Of a stretch of DNA of 64,000 nt, positions 13,745-20,661 are shown in pieces. The stretch is taken from NCBI GenBank assembly GCA_035533075.1, contig DATLUO010000091.1, positions 1 through 64,000 of the forward strand. Direction: 5' to 3'. Below the pieces are notes generated by a model that saw only the letters and a list, made by a program, of their open reading frames with translations, was not told the origin of the DNA and searched no databases. The first letter of the stretch is position 1, and each line of letters begins with the position of its first letter. Made by a program: the position numbers and the translations under genes. Source of the stretch: Pirellulales bacterium. Its GTDB lineage: Bacteria; Planctomycetota; Planctomycetia; Pirellulales; JAICIG01.

Positions 13745-15967
13745 TCACTTCTTGCGGACGTCGAAACCAGCCGAGCTCCCTTCGGTCAGCAGGATGCCGT
13801 TGCGTTCCAACAACGAGCCCTTGCGGAAGTGAACCTGCAGGATCGCCACGTTGTAATCGACCAAGGCGCGCCAGTAGGCGATCTCGGCGTCGGCCAGGCG
13901 GCGCTGGGCGTCGAGCAACATGTCGAGGGTAGCGGTGCCCACCTCGTAAGAGCCTTTGACCGCCTCGAGCTGCTTGGCGGCCGCCACCCGGCGATTGGAC
14001 GTGGTGTGGCTCACCTGGTAGTTGCGGTCCAGATCGCGCAGGGCGTTGGTCAAAAGGTGAAACAACTCCAGTTCCTTGTCTGACAGTTCTTCCTTGTCTG
14101 ACGGTTCAACGCTACGGTTAAGCCCTTCGGAAAGGACCTCCTTCCAATCGAAGCGGACTTCCTCGCTGGTCGGGTCGTCGGCCGGGCGGATCAGGCGGCC
14201 GTCGCTCGGAAGAAGCCCCATCATGTGTCGCAGGCGGCTCTCGGCCGTGTAGAGCTGGCCCAGCGCGTTTTCCGCCTGGGCGCGGAAGAGGAAGTACTGC
14301 TCGCGGGTCTGTGCTTCTTTCTCGGCCTCGCCGCCCTTGGCGCCCGTCATGTTCAAGGCGTGAACCTTTCGCCACGTCTGCAACGCGCTGTCGCGTCCGG
14401 CCTGCACGGCGTTCAGGTTGCGGTAGTGGTAATAGAGATCCCAATAGGCCCGTTCCAGGTCGCTGACCATGTTCCGCACGCCGGCCTCGAAGTCGGCCAG
14501 TGCGACGTCGTCGTCGATCCGCGCCAAGACGAATCGGACATTCGTGCCGCGAACGGCCTTTGAGTCGCCCACCGACCCCTTGGCGTCCTGGCTGGCGCCC
14601 TGTTTCAGGTCCGATTGCGGCCTAACAGGCGTGAAGAGAAAACCGCCCATGTTTCGCAGCACTCTGGAGTTCCCCAATGCGGTCCGAACGGCCTCTTCAA
14701 TCGTGAGATCCCAAATCTCGTGGACATCGGGATTGCTGAGCGTGAGTGGGTCGCGGTCGACGTGTACCTGCTCCACTTGCCGTCCGGCCGGGCCCAAATC
14801 CATGATGGGCGCGGCTGGCGGCTCCTTCTTCTGTTCTGCAGGTGCCGACTCCGTCGATTCGGGAGGAGCAGCGCGAAGCATGGCCAGCGGGGCCATCATG
14901 GCGGCCGCGAGTGCCGCGCCCAGGCAGACTGCCGACCTGGTGAGCGCCGCCCGACTGCGGCGACTGTCGAGAATGCCGTGGAGACGATCATCCAGTACGC
15001 CGCGGCGAGCCATCGGCACGGCCACGAGCGCCGACACCTGCGCATCGGACAGGCCCGTCGCCAGCGCGAGCAACTCGCGGGCATAGTCGCTGGCCCGGGC
15101 GCCTGAGGCCAACACGATGTCGTCGCAGGCCCGCTCACGCTCGATCCGCATTTGCCTTGCGGCCAACCAGACGAGCGGGTTGAACCAGTACACGGCGCAG
15201 GCGACGTGGGCGACCAGTTGCGTAAGCCAGTCCCAGCGGCGGACGTGAGCCAATTCATGCAGCAGCACCAACCGCCGCCGCTCGTCGGGCCAAGCGCCGG
15301 CCTCGAAAGGCACCAGCAGCACGGGCCGCAGCGCACCCCAGGTCAACGGCGCAGGTGCCGATTCGCATTGGCGGAGTTGCACACTGCGGCGCACGCCCAA
15401 TTGCCGGCGCAACTCGTCGAGCAGGTTCAGCCAGCGACGATCGCCGATGACTTGCGAACGGCGGTGCAAGCCGGCCAGTTGCCAGAGTCCGATCGCCAGC
15501 GGAACGAGCGACAGCAATCCGCCCGCCGGCCATGCGATCGCCAGCCATGGCATCGCGGAGCGCGGCGGGCTGGTCGTTTCGATGATGGCAGGCGGCAGAT
15601 TGTGCGGCTCCATTTCCGAACGAGCGGCGATGGGCGGCAAGATGTTCGCCGCATCATGGTGCGGTGCTTCATCGAGCGGCGCGGGGCGATTCGCCTGCGC
15701 GAGCCCGGTGTGCCCCGTTGCGGCGAGCTCCGTTGGCTTGGCGGTCCACTGAGGCAGCCAGGCCACTCGCCAGTCCGGCAGCGCCAGCGACAGGACCGGC
15801 AAGAGCAGCAAGCTCGCCACGCTCAGGCACCACACCAGGTGCCGCCAGGCAGCCGAGGCCCGGCCCAAGACCACCGCAACGACCACGGCAAGGAGCACAA
15901 CGGCCGCGCTTTTGAGCGCCGGGTCCGACAATTCGGATGCAGAAACGAGCGTCAGTAGTGAGGACAT
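13745..15967 (-). CDS. M56 (BlaR1-type) metallopeptidase fused to an internally deleted TolC domain
   Basis: 740 residues from ATG 15967. Residues 1-340 are an M56 membrane peptidase: N-terminal membrane segments, HELAH at about 236-240 as the zinc site, and ERACDD at about 277-282. A further membrane segment near 350 is followed by a Pro/Glu linker. From about residue 417 the sequence is outer-membrane efflux protein: WDLTIEEAVRTALGNSR, a helix with LERAYWDLYYHYRNL, SRLRHMMGLLPSDGRLI, and the terminal VGTATLDMLLDAQRRLADAE and HFRKGSLLERNG blocks typical of planctomycete TolC. The middle of TolC (second barrel segment and its helices, roughly 150 residues) is absent, replaced by SDKEELSDKE. 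A closed barrel is therefore impossible, and the domain may act as a periplasmic sensor. The start is one base after the blaI stop. Confidence 0.85.
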   Translation of the reverse strand: MSSLLTLVSASELSDPALKSAAVVLLAVVVAVVLGRASAAWRHLVWCLSVASLLLLPVLSLALPDWRVAWLPQWTAKPTELAATGHTGLAQANRPAPLDEAPHHDAANILPPIAARSEMEPHNLPPAIIETTSPPRSAMPWLAIAWPAGGLLSLVPLAIGLWQLAGLHRRSQVIGDRRWLNLLDELRRQLGVRRSVQLRQCESAPAPLTWGALRPVLLVPFEAGAWPDERRRLVLLHELAHVRRWDWLTQLVAHVACAVYWFNPLVWLAARQMRIERERACDDIVLASGARASDYARELLALATGLSDAQVSALVAVPMARRGVLDDRLHGILDSRRSRAALTRSAVCLGAALAAAMMAPLAMLRAAPPESTESAPAEQKKEPPAAPIMDLGPAGRQVEQVHVDRDPLTLSNPDVHEIWDLTIEEAVRTALGNSRVLRNMGGFLFTPVRPQSDLKQGASQDAKGSVGDSKAVRGTNVRFVLARIDDDVALADFEAGVRNMVSDLERAYWDLYYHYRNLNAVQAGRDSALQTWRKVHALNMTGAKGGEAEKEAQTREQYFLFRAQAENALGQLYTAESRLRHMMGLLPSDGRLIRPADDPTSEEVRFDWKEVLSEGLNRSVEPSDKEELSDKELELFHLLTNALRDLDRNYQVSHTTSNRRVAAAKQLEAVKGSYEVGTATLDMLLDAQRRLADAEIAYWRALVDYNVAILQVHFRKGSLLERNGILLTEGSSAGFDVRKK

Positions 15968-15968
15968 G

Positions 15969-16358
15969 TCAGCGTCCCTCCTTTCGAGCTTGCTGGATGA
16001 GTTGCGCCAGGCGCTGGAGATCTTGATCGGAAAGGTCGGCGTCGGCCCCTTGCAACAAGGCGGCGACGGCTTTTTCGAGTGAGCCCTCGAAAAAAGTGTC
16101 CAGCACGCGGCGCAGCGCCGAGCGACCGGCCTGGGCGCGGCGGCGGGTGGGGACATAGATATAGCGCCCCTGCTGGGAACGGTGCTTGAGATGCCCCTTG
16201 TCGACGAGGATCGCCAGCAGGGCGCGCACGGCGGAGTAGCTGGGCGGGTCGGGCAGGGCGGCACGGACGTCGGCCGCCGTGGCCTCGCCCTGTGCGTACA
16301 CGATATCCATGATCTGTCGTTCGCGGCGGCTCAGTGTGTCGGCGGGTGCGCGGCTCAT
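15969..16358 (-). CDS. BlaI/MecI-family transcriptional repressor
   Basis: 129 residues from ATG 16358 (MSRAPADTLSRRERQIMDIV); an upstream ATG at 16406 is in frame but lies inside an operator palindrome. The winged-helix domain (about residues 8-75) contains EATAADVRAALPDPPSYSAV and LVDKGHLKHRSQQGRYIYVP, the standard BlaI pattern. The C-terminal helices (about 85-120) mediate dimerisation. It encodes the repressor partner of the M56 peptidase starting one base after its stop, the classic blaI-blaR1 arrangement in which signal-driven proteolysis relieves repression. Two palindromes directly upstream are the likely operators. No beta-lactamase gene is present, so the regulated target may be the operon itself or distant genes. 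Confidence 0.88.
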   Translation of the reverse strand: MSRAPADTLSRRERQIMDIVYAQGEATAADVRAALPDPPSYSAVRALLAILVDKGHLKHRSQQGRYIYVPTRRRAQAGRSALRRVLDTFFEGSLEKAVAALLQGADADLSDQDLQRLAQLIQQARKEGR

Positions 16359-16361
16359 AGT

Positions 16362-16377
16362 TGCTAAAAAATTAGCA
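16362..16377. promoter_or_regulatory. Palindromic operator for the BlaI-type repressor
   Basis: TGCTAAAAAATTAGCA is a perfect inverted repeat (TGCTAA/TTAGCA around AAAA) four bases upstream of the blaI start. Position and AT-rich symmetry fit autoregulation. Confidence 0.6.
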
Positions 16378-16405: not shown

Positions 16406-16422
16406 TGCTGAATTATTCAGCA
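16406..16422. promoter_or_regulatory. Second palindromic operator for the BlaI-type repressor
   Basis: TGCTGAATTATTCAGCA is a perfect inverted repeat (TGCTGAA/TTCAGCA) sharing the TGCT outer bases with the palindrome at 16362. Their centres are about 44 bases apart, roughly four helical turns, so two repressor dimers could bind on one face. Confidence 0.6.
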
Positions 16423-17591: not shown

Positions 17592-18068
17592 GCCGTCAGG
17601 TAATCGAGCCGCCTCCGCCTGCCGCGGCGCGCGGTTTATGTGCGCTGGCAGCCGTAACGTATCAAGCAGTCATGCATGGCGCGCTGGGCCGCGGCCAGGG
17701 CTGCGCGGGCACGCTCGGTGAAATCGTTCGGGCCGCCGGAACCGTTGGCCACCAGCCGCCGCCAAACACGGTAAACGGGCGAACGACTTGCGGGCACGAC
17801 CCTTGTTCTTCGAAAGTGTTTTCGTCCGATCCCGGCGGCGGGTCAACTGTCGGAATCCGACAGTTGGCCATTGGTGGGGGGCGTCCGTCTTTGTCGCCAC
17901 CGGTTTCCGGCACGGCCCCAGAAGGCATGGTGCGCCACAATGGAGAAGTTGCGGAGGTGTTTGCGGTAAGCTAAAAAGGAAGTGGAAGGGGCCTGTCAAA
18001 AGGCGGGCTGTCACACGCCGGTGCCGTGATCCGAGCCACGGTTGTCCCGTCGAGCGATTCGTGCCGCC
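17592..18068. other. Gene-free stretch with a 23-bp palindrome and a possible gene fragment
   Basis: No complete gene is convincing. At 17844-17866 CAACTGTCGGA and TCCGACAGTTG flank a single A, a perfect palindrome that could be a terminator stem (no T-run) or a binding site. On the minus strand, ending near 17638, a short frame with FTERARAALAAAQRAMHDCL is protein-like but has no start. The last 60 bases presumably hold the promoter of the helicase gene. Confidence 0.4.
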
Positions 18069-19469
18069 ATGCCGCCTGTCACGCCCTCCCTGTCCTTCGC
18101 CGGCGGCACGTTGCTGCTGAAAGACCTTCCGGCGGCGGGCGTCCGGCGCGTTTTTGGCGATTTACCTTGGACCTGGGACGACCGGACGGCCGCGTGGCGC
18201 ATCGACGCGATCGAGTATCCCGCGGTCCGCTCGGCGATCGATGCTCGCCGCCTGGCGTGCCACGACACCGTACCCAAGTGGCAACCGGTCCGCTGGTCCA
18301 AGATCGAGTTGCCGCCGTTGCGAGCGGAGCAGCAAGCGGCCCTGGCGGCCTGGCAGACCGGGCGCCGCGGACTGGTGGTCATGCCCACCGGCACCGGCAA
18401 GACCGAAGTGGCCTTGTCGATCGTTCGCGACCTGGCCGTTTCGACGCTCGTCGTCGCGCCGGTGCGAGACCTGATGTATCAGTGGCACCGCCGCATTGCC
18501 GAGCGCCTGGGTTACGAGGCCGGCATCGTCGGCGACGGCGTCTATCGCGTTTCGCCCGTATCGGTGACCACTTACGACAGCGCGTTCATTCATACCGAGC
18601 GGCTCGGCGACCGGTTCGGGCTGATCGTGTTCGACGAATGTCACCACCTGCTCGGCACCCTGCGCCGCGACGCCGCACGGATGAGCGCCGCGCCGTGGCG
18701 GCTAGGCCTGACCGCCACGCCCGAACGATCGGACGGCCGCCATGCCGACTATGCACGGCTCATCGGGCCGGTCGCATATTCGCTTCCCTTGGCGGCGGTC
18801 CGCGGTTCCACGCTGGCCAATTACGAGGTGGTGCGGATACCCGTGTTCCTGGCACGCGAAGAACAGGCGCGCTACGACGCCCTGGCCCGCCAAGTGCGGC
18901 AATACGTCTGCCAGCGGCGACAGACTCAGCCCGACTTCGGCTGGGCGGAGTTGTGTGCCGATACGGGCAAGTCGCCCGAGGCGCGACGCGCGCTGCGGGC
19001 CTATCGTGCCAAGCTGGCCATCGAAGACCGGGCCGAAGAAAAGCTGCGCGTGCTGGAAGACCTGTTCCGCCTGCACGCGGGAAGCCGGACCATCGTCTTT
19101 ACCGGCTCGAACGCTATGGCCCGCGAGGTGTCGCGCCGCTTTCTCATCCCGTGCCTGCTCAGCCACTGCGGCAAAAAAGAGCGGCTGGAAGTGCTGCGCG
19201 GCGTGGAAGACGGCACCTACCCGGCGCTCGTCGCCAACCAGGTGCTCGACGAGGGCGTCGACTTGCCGGCCGCCAAGGTGGCCGTCATCCTGGGTGGCAA
19301 AGGCTCGGCGCGTCAGGCCAAGCAGCGGTTGGGGCGGATATTGCGCAAGGCCGGAAACGAGCGGGCCACGTTGTATGAGGTCGTTTGCACGGGCACCAAC
19401 GAAGAAGACCGCTCGCGGCGGCGGCGGCGAAACGATGCTTACCAGGGAACACGCCATCGTCGAATATGA
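18069..19469 (+). CDS. XPB/Rad25-type superfamily 2 DNA helicase
   Basis: 466 residues from ATG 18069. The N-terminal 80 residues form a damage-recognition-like domain (GGTLLLKDLPAAGVRRVFGD and so on). Helicase motifs follow in order: Walker A MPTGTGKTE near residue 113, Ia VVAPVRDLMYQW, DEAH-type VFDECHHLLG, III LGLTATPERSDGR, then domain 2 with RTIVFTGSN, LVANQVLDEGVDLPAA and the arginine-finger motif RQAKQRLGRILRK. This is the compact XPB form known from archaea and some bacteria. It overlaps the Bax1 gene by 35 bases, so the two are coupled. In archaea XPB and Bax1 work as a helicase-nuclease that opens and cuts DNA around damage. Confidence 0.88.
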   Translation: MPPVTPSLSFAGGTLLLKDLPAAGVRRVFGDLPWTWDDRTAAWRIDAIEYPAVRSAIDARRLACHDTVPKWQPVRWSKIELPPLRAEQQAALAAWQTGRRGLVVMPTGTGKTEVALSIVRDLAVSTLVVAPVRDLMYQWHRRIAERLGYEAGIVGDGVYRVSPVSVTTYDSAFIHTERLGDRFGLIVFDECHHLLGTLRRDAARMSAAPWRLGLTATPERSDGRHADYARLIGPVAYSLPLAAVRGSTLANYEVVRIPVFLAREEQARYDALARQVRQYVCQRRQTQPDFGWAELCADTGKSPEARRALRAYRAKLAIEDRAEEKLRVLEDLFRLHAGSRTIVFTGSNAMAREVSRRFLIPCLLSHCGKKERLEVLRGVEDGTYPALVANQVLDEGVDLPAAKVAVILGGKGSARQAKQRLGRILRKAGNERATLYEVVCTGTNEEDRSRRRRRNDAYQGTRHRRI

Positions 19470-20661
19470 GGGCGGCCGCGTCCTGCCCGACCGGCTCGAC
19501 CGCCGCAGGCACGCCCGCTATGCCGGCTATGCCGAGCGGATGCTCACCGTCTATCGGCACGGCGCGGGTCGAACGCGCGGCGAGCTGCACCGCGCGGTGC
19601 GCGACATCTTCATCGACGAGCCCGATTGCCCCGTGCGGCGCATCGCAGCGTTCTGCAAGCTGCTCGACGACGCCAGCAGCTACGATTACGACCGGGCAGG
19701 CGACGCGGCCGCACTGCGAAAAAAGGTGTTTCAGCTCGCCGCCGCGTCGCATCCGTTGGTCGCGTCGGCCGAGGGCCTCTTCGGCCGAAACGAGCAGCGG
19801 GTCAAGGCGGAGATTGCCGCCGAGCTTGGCAGCAGTTGGGACGACATCGACGCGAGGCTGTTTTCCGACATCATCGACTTCCATCGGCTGCGCGAGTTTG
19901 CCGGCTACGTCGACGGCCGCGCTCTTTTGGCGCGTTACAACGTGGCCCAGACCCAGGCGGCCCTGTTCGACGCCGTCGAGATGACGGTCTGGGCGGAGGA
20001 CGATTTCAAAACCATCTTTCGCTATGCGAAGTTGGCGCGGCTGCTGCACACGGTCCGCCGCACGGCCGACGGCAAGTACGTCATTCGGCTGGATGGCCCC
20101 GCGTCGTTGCTGCGCGAAACGCGACGCTACGGCGCGGCGATGGCCCGCTTTCTGCCGGCCCTGTTGGCGTGCCGAGGCTGGCGGATGCACGCGCTCGTGC
20201 GTACACGCGGGCAGCAGCGGATCAACCGGCTCGAACTTTCGCCGGCCGACGGTTTGACCAGCCATCTGCCGCCGCCCGAAGAGTTCGACTCGTCTGTCGA
20301 AGCGGCGTTTGCCGACAAGTGGGGCGTCGCCCCGCGCGAGGGCTGGACGCTGCTGCGCGAAGGCGAGGTGTTGTGCCGCGAGCAGCACGTGTTCGTGCCC
20401 GACTTCGTGCTCGCGCACGACGACGGCCGCCGCGTGTTGCTGGAGATCGTCGGCTTTTGGACGCCCGAATACCTGGAAGCGAAGTTGACCACGATGCGGC
20501 GTTACCGCGACGAGCGAATCATCCTTGCGCTGGCCGAAAGCAAGCGCCACGAGGCGTTTGCGGAGCGGTTCGCGGCCGCCGGCTTTTCCATCGTCCGCTT
20601 CAAAGCCGCGTTGTCGGTGAAGAGTGTGCTCGACGCGTTGCGGTCGCTTTCGCAGAGATAG
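19435..20661 (+). CDS. Bax1-type (DUF790) nuclease partner of XPB
   Basis: 408 residues from ATG 19435; the frame is open further upstream inside the helicase gene but is not protein-like there. The N-terminus starts MLTREHAIVEYEGGRVLPDR, the usual DUF790/Bax1 opening. The C-terminal nuclease domain has FVPDFVLAHDDGRRVLLEIV followed by GFWTPEYLEAKL. The Asp, Glu and Lys in these blocks form the PD-(D/E)XK-like active site conserved in Bax1. The middle is helical with RLLHTVRR and LRETRRYG. The gene overlaps its XPB partner, which strongly supports a complex. In archaea Bax1 cuts 5' of a DNA bubble with XPB. A full RNA-polymerase-coupled repair role is not implied in bacteria. Confidence 0.85.
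   Translation: MLTREHAIVEYEGGRVLPDRLDRRRHARYAGYAERMLTVYRHGAGRTRGELHRAVRDIFIDEPDCPVRRIAAFCKLLDDASSYDYDRAGDAAALRKKVFQLAAASHPLVASAEGLFGRNEQRVKAEIAAELGSSWDDIDARLFSDIIDFHRLREFAGYVDGRALLARYNVAQTQAALFDAVEMTVWAEDDFKTIFRYAKLARLLHTVRRTADGKYVIRLDGPASLLRETRRYGAAMARFLPALLACRGWRMHALVRTRGQQRINRLELSPADGLTSHLPPPEEFDSSVEAAFADKWGVAPREGWTLLREGEVLCREQHVFVPDFVLAHDDGRRVLLEIVGFWTPEYLEAKLTTMRRYRDERIILALAESKRHEAFAERFAAAGFSIVRFKAALSVKSVLDALRSLSQR

Follow-up and report, generated by a model that had tools for sequence, protein, structure and literature searches.

The window analysed here is a stretch of 64,000 nucleotides from a Pirellulales bacterium whose 8.5 Mb genome (G000) is available as a fragmented assembly. A single open reading frame on the minus strand, 13745..15967, encodes a protein of 740 aa, with the ATG at 15967-15965 and the stop codon at 13747-13745. 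The first-pass annotation of this DNA had described one uninterrupted frame joining M56 peptidase sequence to outer-membrane efflux-protein sequence. The coordinates of that frame were exact, its strand is minus, and the Pfam matches to M56 and to OEP both exceeded their cut-offs. A second copy of the fusion is present in JAICLL010000035.1 (G001; contig C109, L030:3114-6089, plus strand), a genome of the same family and another genus.

The peptidase half and the BlaI gene

Peptidase_M56 (PF05569) matched the N-terminal half of the protein with an E-value of 2.9e-36 and 125.6 bits, against a curated cut-off of 31. The domain covers aa 17-329 (14981..15919, minus strand); a genome-wide family search returned the same span, and the BlaR1 structures 8exs and 8exp also matched. 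The zinc-binding/catalytic motif HELAH at aa 237-241 (15245..15259, minus strand) aligned with HEYAH of BlaR1. In the same alignment, the ERACD sequence at aa 278-282 (15122..15136, minus strand) supplied E278, equivalent to the zinc-ligand Glu, and D282, equivalent to Asp246, so that the BlaR1 active-site residues correspond to H237, E238, H241, E278 and D282. Judged by this alignment, the M56 half is a BlaR1-type peptidase with a conserved active site. The NCBIfam equivalog models for the BlaR1/MecR1 beta-lactam sensors scored well below their thresholds (NF000326, 98 bits against a cut-off of 400; NF033108, 23 bits against 1200), and the matches to these models were confined to residues 144-353.

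Hydropathy placed the last transmembrane helix before the C-terminal domain at aa 346-364 (14876..14932, minus strand). The N-terminal side of this helix is positively charged and little charge follows it. On the basis of hydropathy and charge, the TolC-derived domain should therefore be periplasmic.

A BlaI/MecI-type repressor gene encoding 129 aa lies at 15969..16358 on the minus strand, and its product matched Penicillinase_R (PF03965) with an E-value of 8.5e-28 and 97.5 bits. The longest frame starts at 16406; we chose the ATG at 16358 because the G001 orthologue begins at the same place. The repressor gene ends 1 nt before the start of the fusion, and gene order and spacing are identical in G000 and G001. 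Comparison with solved repressors, made for the BlaI cleavage site, gave only weak N-terminal matches that were not usable.

A likely BlaI operator, TGCTAATTTTTTAGCA, is found directly before the BlaI start codon (16362..16377, no strand assigned). Comparison of the upstream regions showed a second palindrome, GCTGAATAATTCAGC (16407..16421, no strand assigned). In G001, TGCTAATATTTTAGCA stands at the place of TGCTAATTTTTTAGCA, and that genome's second candidate operator, TGCTAAATATTTAGCA, lies slightly upstream, at the position where G000 has GCTGAATAATTCAGC. Across the whole genomes, G000 has one copy of the pattern TGCTAAN4TTAGCA and G001 has two, all of them before this BlaI gene. When one mismatch was allowed, no additional site appeared in G000 and one additional stray site appeared in G001, while a control pattern gave 25 and 15. 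TGCTAAN4TTAGCA is thus likely to be the operator expected of an autoregulated BlaI.

The first-pass annotation had proposed that the fusion controls the BlaI regulon. The pairing of the fusion with BlaI fits this proposal, but the proposal is weakened by the finding of the likely operator only at the operon itself. No other operator-bearing target was detected in G000 with up to one mismatch, a search by perfect and one-mismatch patterns that degenerate sites could escape. As the candidate operator occurs solely at its own operon in G000, the visible regulon would be the operon itself, and by this pattern the circuit looks self-contained.

Among the neighbouring genes, 18042-20661 on the plus strand encodes an XPB/ERCC3-like helicase with ResIII and XPB_DRD domains and, after it, a DUF790 protein (E 1.9e-96). 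These two genes resemble the archaeal XPB-Bax1 repair pair, which would be unusual in a planctomycete. Phage and defence libraries returned nothing relevant.

The TolC-derived domain

The OEP model (PF02321) matched the C-terminal part of the fusion in two stretches, with an E-value of 6.3e-10 and 39.6 bits against a cut-off of 22; the G001 copy scored 20.6 bits, just under that cut-off. The source genome also encodes a full-length TolC, an 819-aa lipoprotein, together with ABC transporter genes on a different contig (C39 of G000; L031:4400-6859, minus strand). Aligning the fusion with this protein and with eight other TolCs of the order defined the boundaries of the missing stretches.

All parts of the domain are read from the minus strand. 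The first block is the equivalent of the equatorial helix H1 (aa 406-447, 14627..14752) and was identified by alignment with full-length TolC, at 65% identity to the organism's own copy. It is followed by the first deletion join (14534..14626), where the roughly 185 aa that hold H2 and the first barrel hairpin region in TolC (residues 44-228 of the TolC model) give way to a linker of some 30 aa without clear homology. The second block (aa 479-621, 14105..14533) comprises the H3-H4 coiled-coil hairpin with its tip and then H5, at 70% identity to the same TolC. At the second join (14104..14105) about 98 aa are absent (TolC-model residues 371-468), including H6, the second barrel hairpin and the start of H7. 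The third block (aa 630-730, 13778..14080) contains the rest of H7, a tip and H8, at 77% identity; the helices of the second and third blocks were also present in the model. The net loss over both gaps is about 250 aa, and the lipoprotein start and long C-terminal tail of TolC are absent as well. An automatic alignment scattered the non-homologous linker over the first gap, and the boundaries of that gap were taken from the alignment of the order's TolCs instead; a few strand residues nominally paired with the linker were not counted as kept.

The tree discussed below groups the fusions with this TolC. Because of that grouping and the block identities, the C-terminal part of the fusion is, on sequence grounds, the organism's own TolC lipoprotein in remodelled form.

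The gaps were then read against a model of the full TolC, which had a mean pLDDT of only 57 but showed its elements in the expected order. Its strands at residues 103-117, 129-144, 150-162, 172-186, 395-404 and 440-449 fall inside the two gaps. The fusion has all of helices 20-37, 239-289, 296-332 and 528-563, half of helix 357-390 and four-fifths of helix 455-523. H1, H3, H4 and H8 are therefore untouched and most of H7 is retained. In terms of the modelled TolC fold, the excision is symmetric: in each half the equatorial helix and the coiled-coil hairpin remain, while the barrel hairpin is absent together with the helix that runs into it. The earlier annotation had reported a single central deletion of about 150 residues with one barrel segment. 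A part is indeed absent, but alignment with full TolC and mapping onto the model replaced the single deletion with two, which remove both hairpins.

In TolC and related outer membrane factors, each protomer contributes four barrel strands, which gives a trimer of 12 strands. The fused domain lacks these four strands, as those of the TolC model fall in the gaps, and it retains the coiled-coil hairpins and tips typical of the family. Structural modelling, which the first-pass annotation had recommended, yielded a TolC-like helical bundle without a barrel. The model contains long helices at residues 94-146, 153-189, 231-282 (broken) and 287-322, small equatorial elements, and only two strands of 4 residues each. 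Confidence was moderate, with an overall pLDDT of 64, values of 75-90 along the main helices and a pTM of 0.59. In a fold search of the PDB with this model as query, the top 44 matches all belonged to the TolC family (best E-value 9.8e-6, probability 1.00), with TM-scores to the query of about 0.4-0.54. A profile of full TolC found no match among PDB sequences at 0.001, whereas a fold search did. The nearly strandless model and the position of the strands in both gaps bear out the earlier view that this piece could not form a barrel.

Conservation and history of the fusion

The fusion in G001 has the same join, the same two gaps, the BlaI gene and the likely operator, and it is flanked by different genes; the two fusion proteins are 66% identical. 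We considered whether the gene was the product of a misassembly or a chimeric contig, since both G000 and G001 are fragmented assemblies. As G001 is an independent assembly in which the same join and gaps recur at that level of identity among other flanking genes, this explanation was ruled out and can in practice be dismissed. The earlier annotation had asked how many genomes keep the fusion and its deletion, and had named separate M56 and full TolC genes in homologues, or a join unique to one assembly, as findings that would count against it. Both the fusion and the deletions proved to be kept in this second genome, and neither of those adverse findings was borne out. In the G001 protein, M56 and TolC are separated by some 250 additional aa, in which a secretin-type N-terminal domain (PF13629) matched weakly, at 0.0013 and below its cut-off. 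The geometry of any signal transfer is therefore not conserved between the two proteins.

G001 came from a scan of the genome collection by short exact patterns, which reaches close relatives only. No third fusion was detected: among 397 order genomes and 394 phylum genomes there was no other contiguous match across both gaps. A separate full TolC was present in 377 of the 397 order genomes. Known from two genomes only, the fusion is rare and seems to have arisen once. No published description of an M56 protein with TolC, or of such a fusion in Planctomycetes, was found in the literature available without subscription.

Selection on the gene was assessed by comparing G000 with G001. The dN/dS ratio was 0.33 for the TolC part of the fusion and 0.31 for its M56 part, compared with 0.16 for BlaI, 0.11 for MetRS and 0.05-0.07 for full TolC in the same blocks. 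The fused TolC piece is under purifying selection like the rest of the gene; its constraint is looser than that of the working tunnel, as its ratio is well above that of full TolC. We also defined a set of 100 positions constant across 17 full TolCs. One of the two fusions (G000 or G001) kept 86 of these 100 positions and the other 83, with both tips included.

Synonymous divergence between the two genomes was 0.33-0.69 for the BlaI-fusion operon (13745-16358), 1.0 for MetRS and 1.2 for TolC. This low divergence, together with the different neighbours in the two genomes, suggests that the operon moved laterally between the lineages after their split. The best tree placed the fusions beside the own-genome TolC with support of 95, and an alternative tree could not be rejected (AU p 0.32). 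Transfer is allowed by the tree but not required, and these trees fit an origin of the fusion before or after the genus split.

A putative sensor of efflux adaptors

The fusion belongs to the BlaI/M56 signalling kind, and matches neither the BlaR1 beta-lactam sensor models nor the barrel requirement of TolC. Like BlaR1/MecR1 with BlaI/MecI of Staphylococcus aureus and Bacillus licheniformis, it combines an M56 gluzincin membrane protease bearing a C-terminal extramembrane sensor with a Penicillinase_R repressor partner that is apparently autoregulated. It differs from these systems in that the sensor is a barrel-less TolC and not a penicillin-binding domain, that no beta-lactamase gene adjoins the locus, and that the visible candidate operator is confined to its own operon. 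With the TolC/OEP family (PF02321) the fusion shares the coiled-coil hairpins, the tips and most invariant residues; it differs in lacking the barrel hairpins, H2, H6, the lipoprotein signal and the C-terminal tail, and in being anchored, by its predicted topology, in the inner membrane through M56.

We favour, at a little less than an even chance, the reading that this is an autoregulated pair of the BlaI/BlaR1 type in which the penicillin-binding sensor has been replaced by a barrel-less TolC that docks onto adaptors. The protease would be embedded in the inner membrane, its zinc site facing the cytoplasm, and the TolC-derived bundle would stand in the periplasm, its pump-docking tips intact, without entering the outer membrane. 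There it would most likely bind the hairpin tips of the periplasmic adaptors of efflux or type I secretion pumps, competing with TolC or standing in for it. The bound or free state would be relayed through the membrane to the protease, which would cut BlaI and allow the operon to be expressed. Such a cell would be able to detect pump parts that are free or idle. The operon may have no target beyond itself; further decoy sensor is the sole output that is visible. The topology, the cleavage of BlaI, the adaptor binding and its partner, and the direction of the response are the parts of this scheme that we infer.

Docking onto adaptors is proposed because of the retained tips and because of two sets of published results. 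BlaR1 has an extracellular C-terminal sensor, and once this is engaged the protease cleaves BlaI directly (PMC9834060). Adaptors contact the TolC tip through the RLS motif of their own hairpin tips, and binding persists when a TolC tip is transplanted onto MacA (PMC3391258). That MacA-TolC-alpha tip chimera resembles the fusion in that a scaffold other than TolC, lacking a barrel, presents the TolC tip, and it binds adaptor tips; unlike the fusion, it was built in the laboratory and is not a signalling protein (PMC3391258). Mimicry of a TolC protomer, as suggested by the first-pass annotation, requires likeness to TolC at the tips and coiled coils, and these are the regions that appear to be retained.

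The domain might instead pair sideways with TolC protomers or assembly intermediates and report free monomers or blocked insertion into the outer membrane. The coiled-coil faces that pack on neighbouring protomers are kept along with the tips, and the long blocks are 70-77% identical to a full TolC which the organism retains. However, the equatorial and barrel parts that help to set the trimer are absent, and the fusion and tolC are not co-localised, the latter lying with its ABC transporter genes on another contig; we consider lateral pairing unlikely. The TolC piece could also be a generic helical spacer, or a sensor of a ligand or of the cell wall without any link to efflux, reflecting the swapping of C-terminal domains among planctomycete M56 proteins. 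The 15 M56 genes of the source genome bear many unrelated C-terminal domains (carboxypeptidase-regulatory repeats, HEAT, WD40-like, prenyltransferase-like and DUF1559 among them), and the inserted domain of the G001 fusion points the same way. A spacer need not, however, keep 83-86% of the TolC-invariant residues with the tips, nor lose both barrel hairpins and yet no coiled-coil hairpin, which makes this explanation improbable.

Decay of the gene, in which a duplicated tolC fragment fell behind an M56 gene and has been tolerated, would agree with the sparse distribution and with the evolution of the fused piece at a faster rate than TolC (dN/dS 0.33 against 0.05-0.07). As both genera have a stop-free frame with the two gaps in common, and as the dN/dS of the fused piece lies far under 1 and matches the M56 value, we regard decay as very unlikely.

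Monitoring of tripartite pumps by cells is mostly known from indirect stress responses. If the adaptor-docking reading is true, a protease linked to a decoy exit duct would read out the export machinery directly and would open the question to testing. The fusion also shows a possible use for the varied tails in the large and unexplained set of planctomycete M56 proteins, and it provides a naturally barrel-less TolC on which structure and binding can be studied. Secretin, polysaccharide-export and L-ring tails on related M56 proteins hint at a wider pattern. It is possible, though doubtful, that a class of BlaR1-type proteases in planctomycetes has repeatedly recruited soluble portions of the export machines of the outer membrane (TolC, secretin, polysaccharide-export, flagellar L-ring) to serve as decoy sensors, each protease reporting the assembly or occupancy of one envelope machine.

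Several M56 proteins with other tails were recorded. In the source genome, the protein at L081:1248-3575 (plus strand; contig C31) carries a piece of Secretin (PF00263) behind M56, with an E-value of 1.2e-6, and the sole relative of this tail found elsewhere in that genome was a stretch of 104 aa at 43%. Poly_export domains occur in M56 proteins of other genomes of the order (L105:1306-3915, L108:527-2707 and L109:1006-3891, all plus strand), and the L108 protein also has a flagellar L-ring FlgH domain (E 1.6e-13). A source-genome M56 protein at L032:2858-3220 (minus strand; contig C121) has a coiled-coil tail with a loop resembling the TolC tip, AFYVTGSRGGEEPK, at 40% over 35 aa and a probability of 74. 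The M56 protein at L079:892-4308 (minus strand; contig C219 of G000) combines a PD40 propeller with weak LTXXQ (Spy/CpxP-like) matches, another tail of the envelope-stress type.
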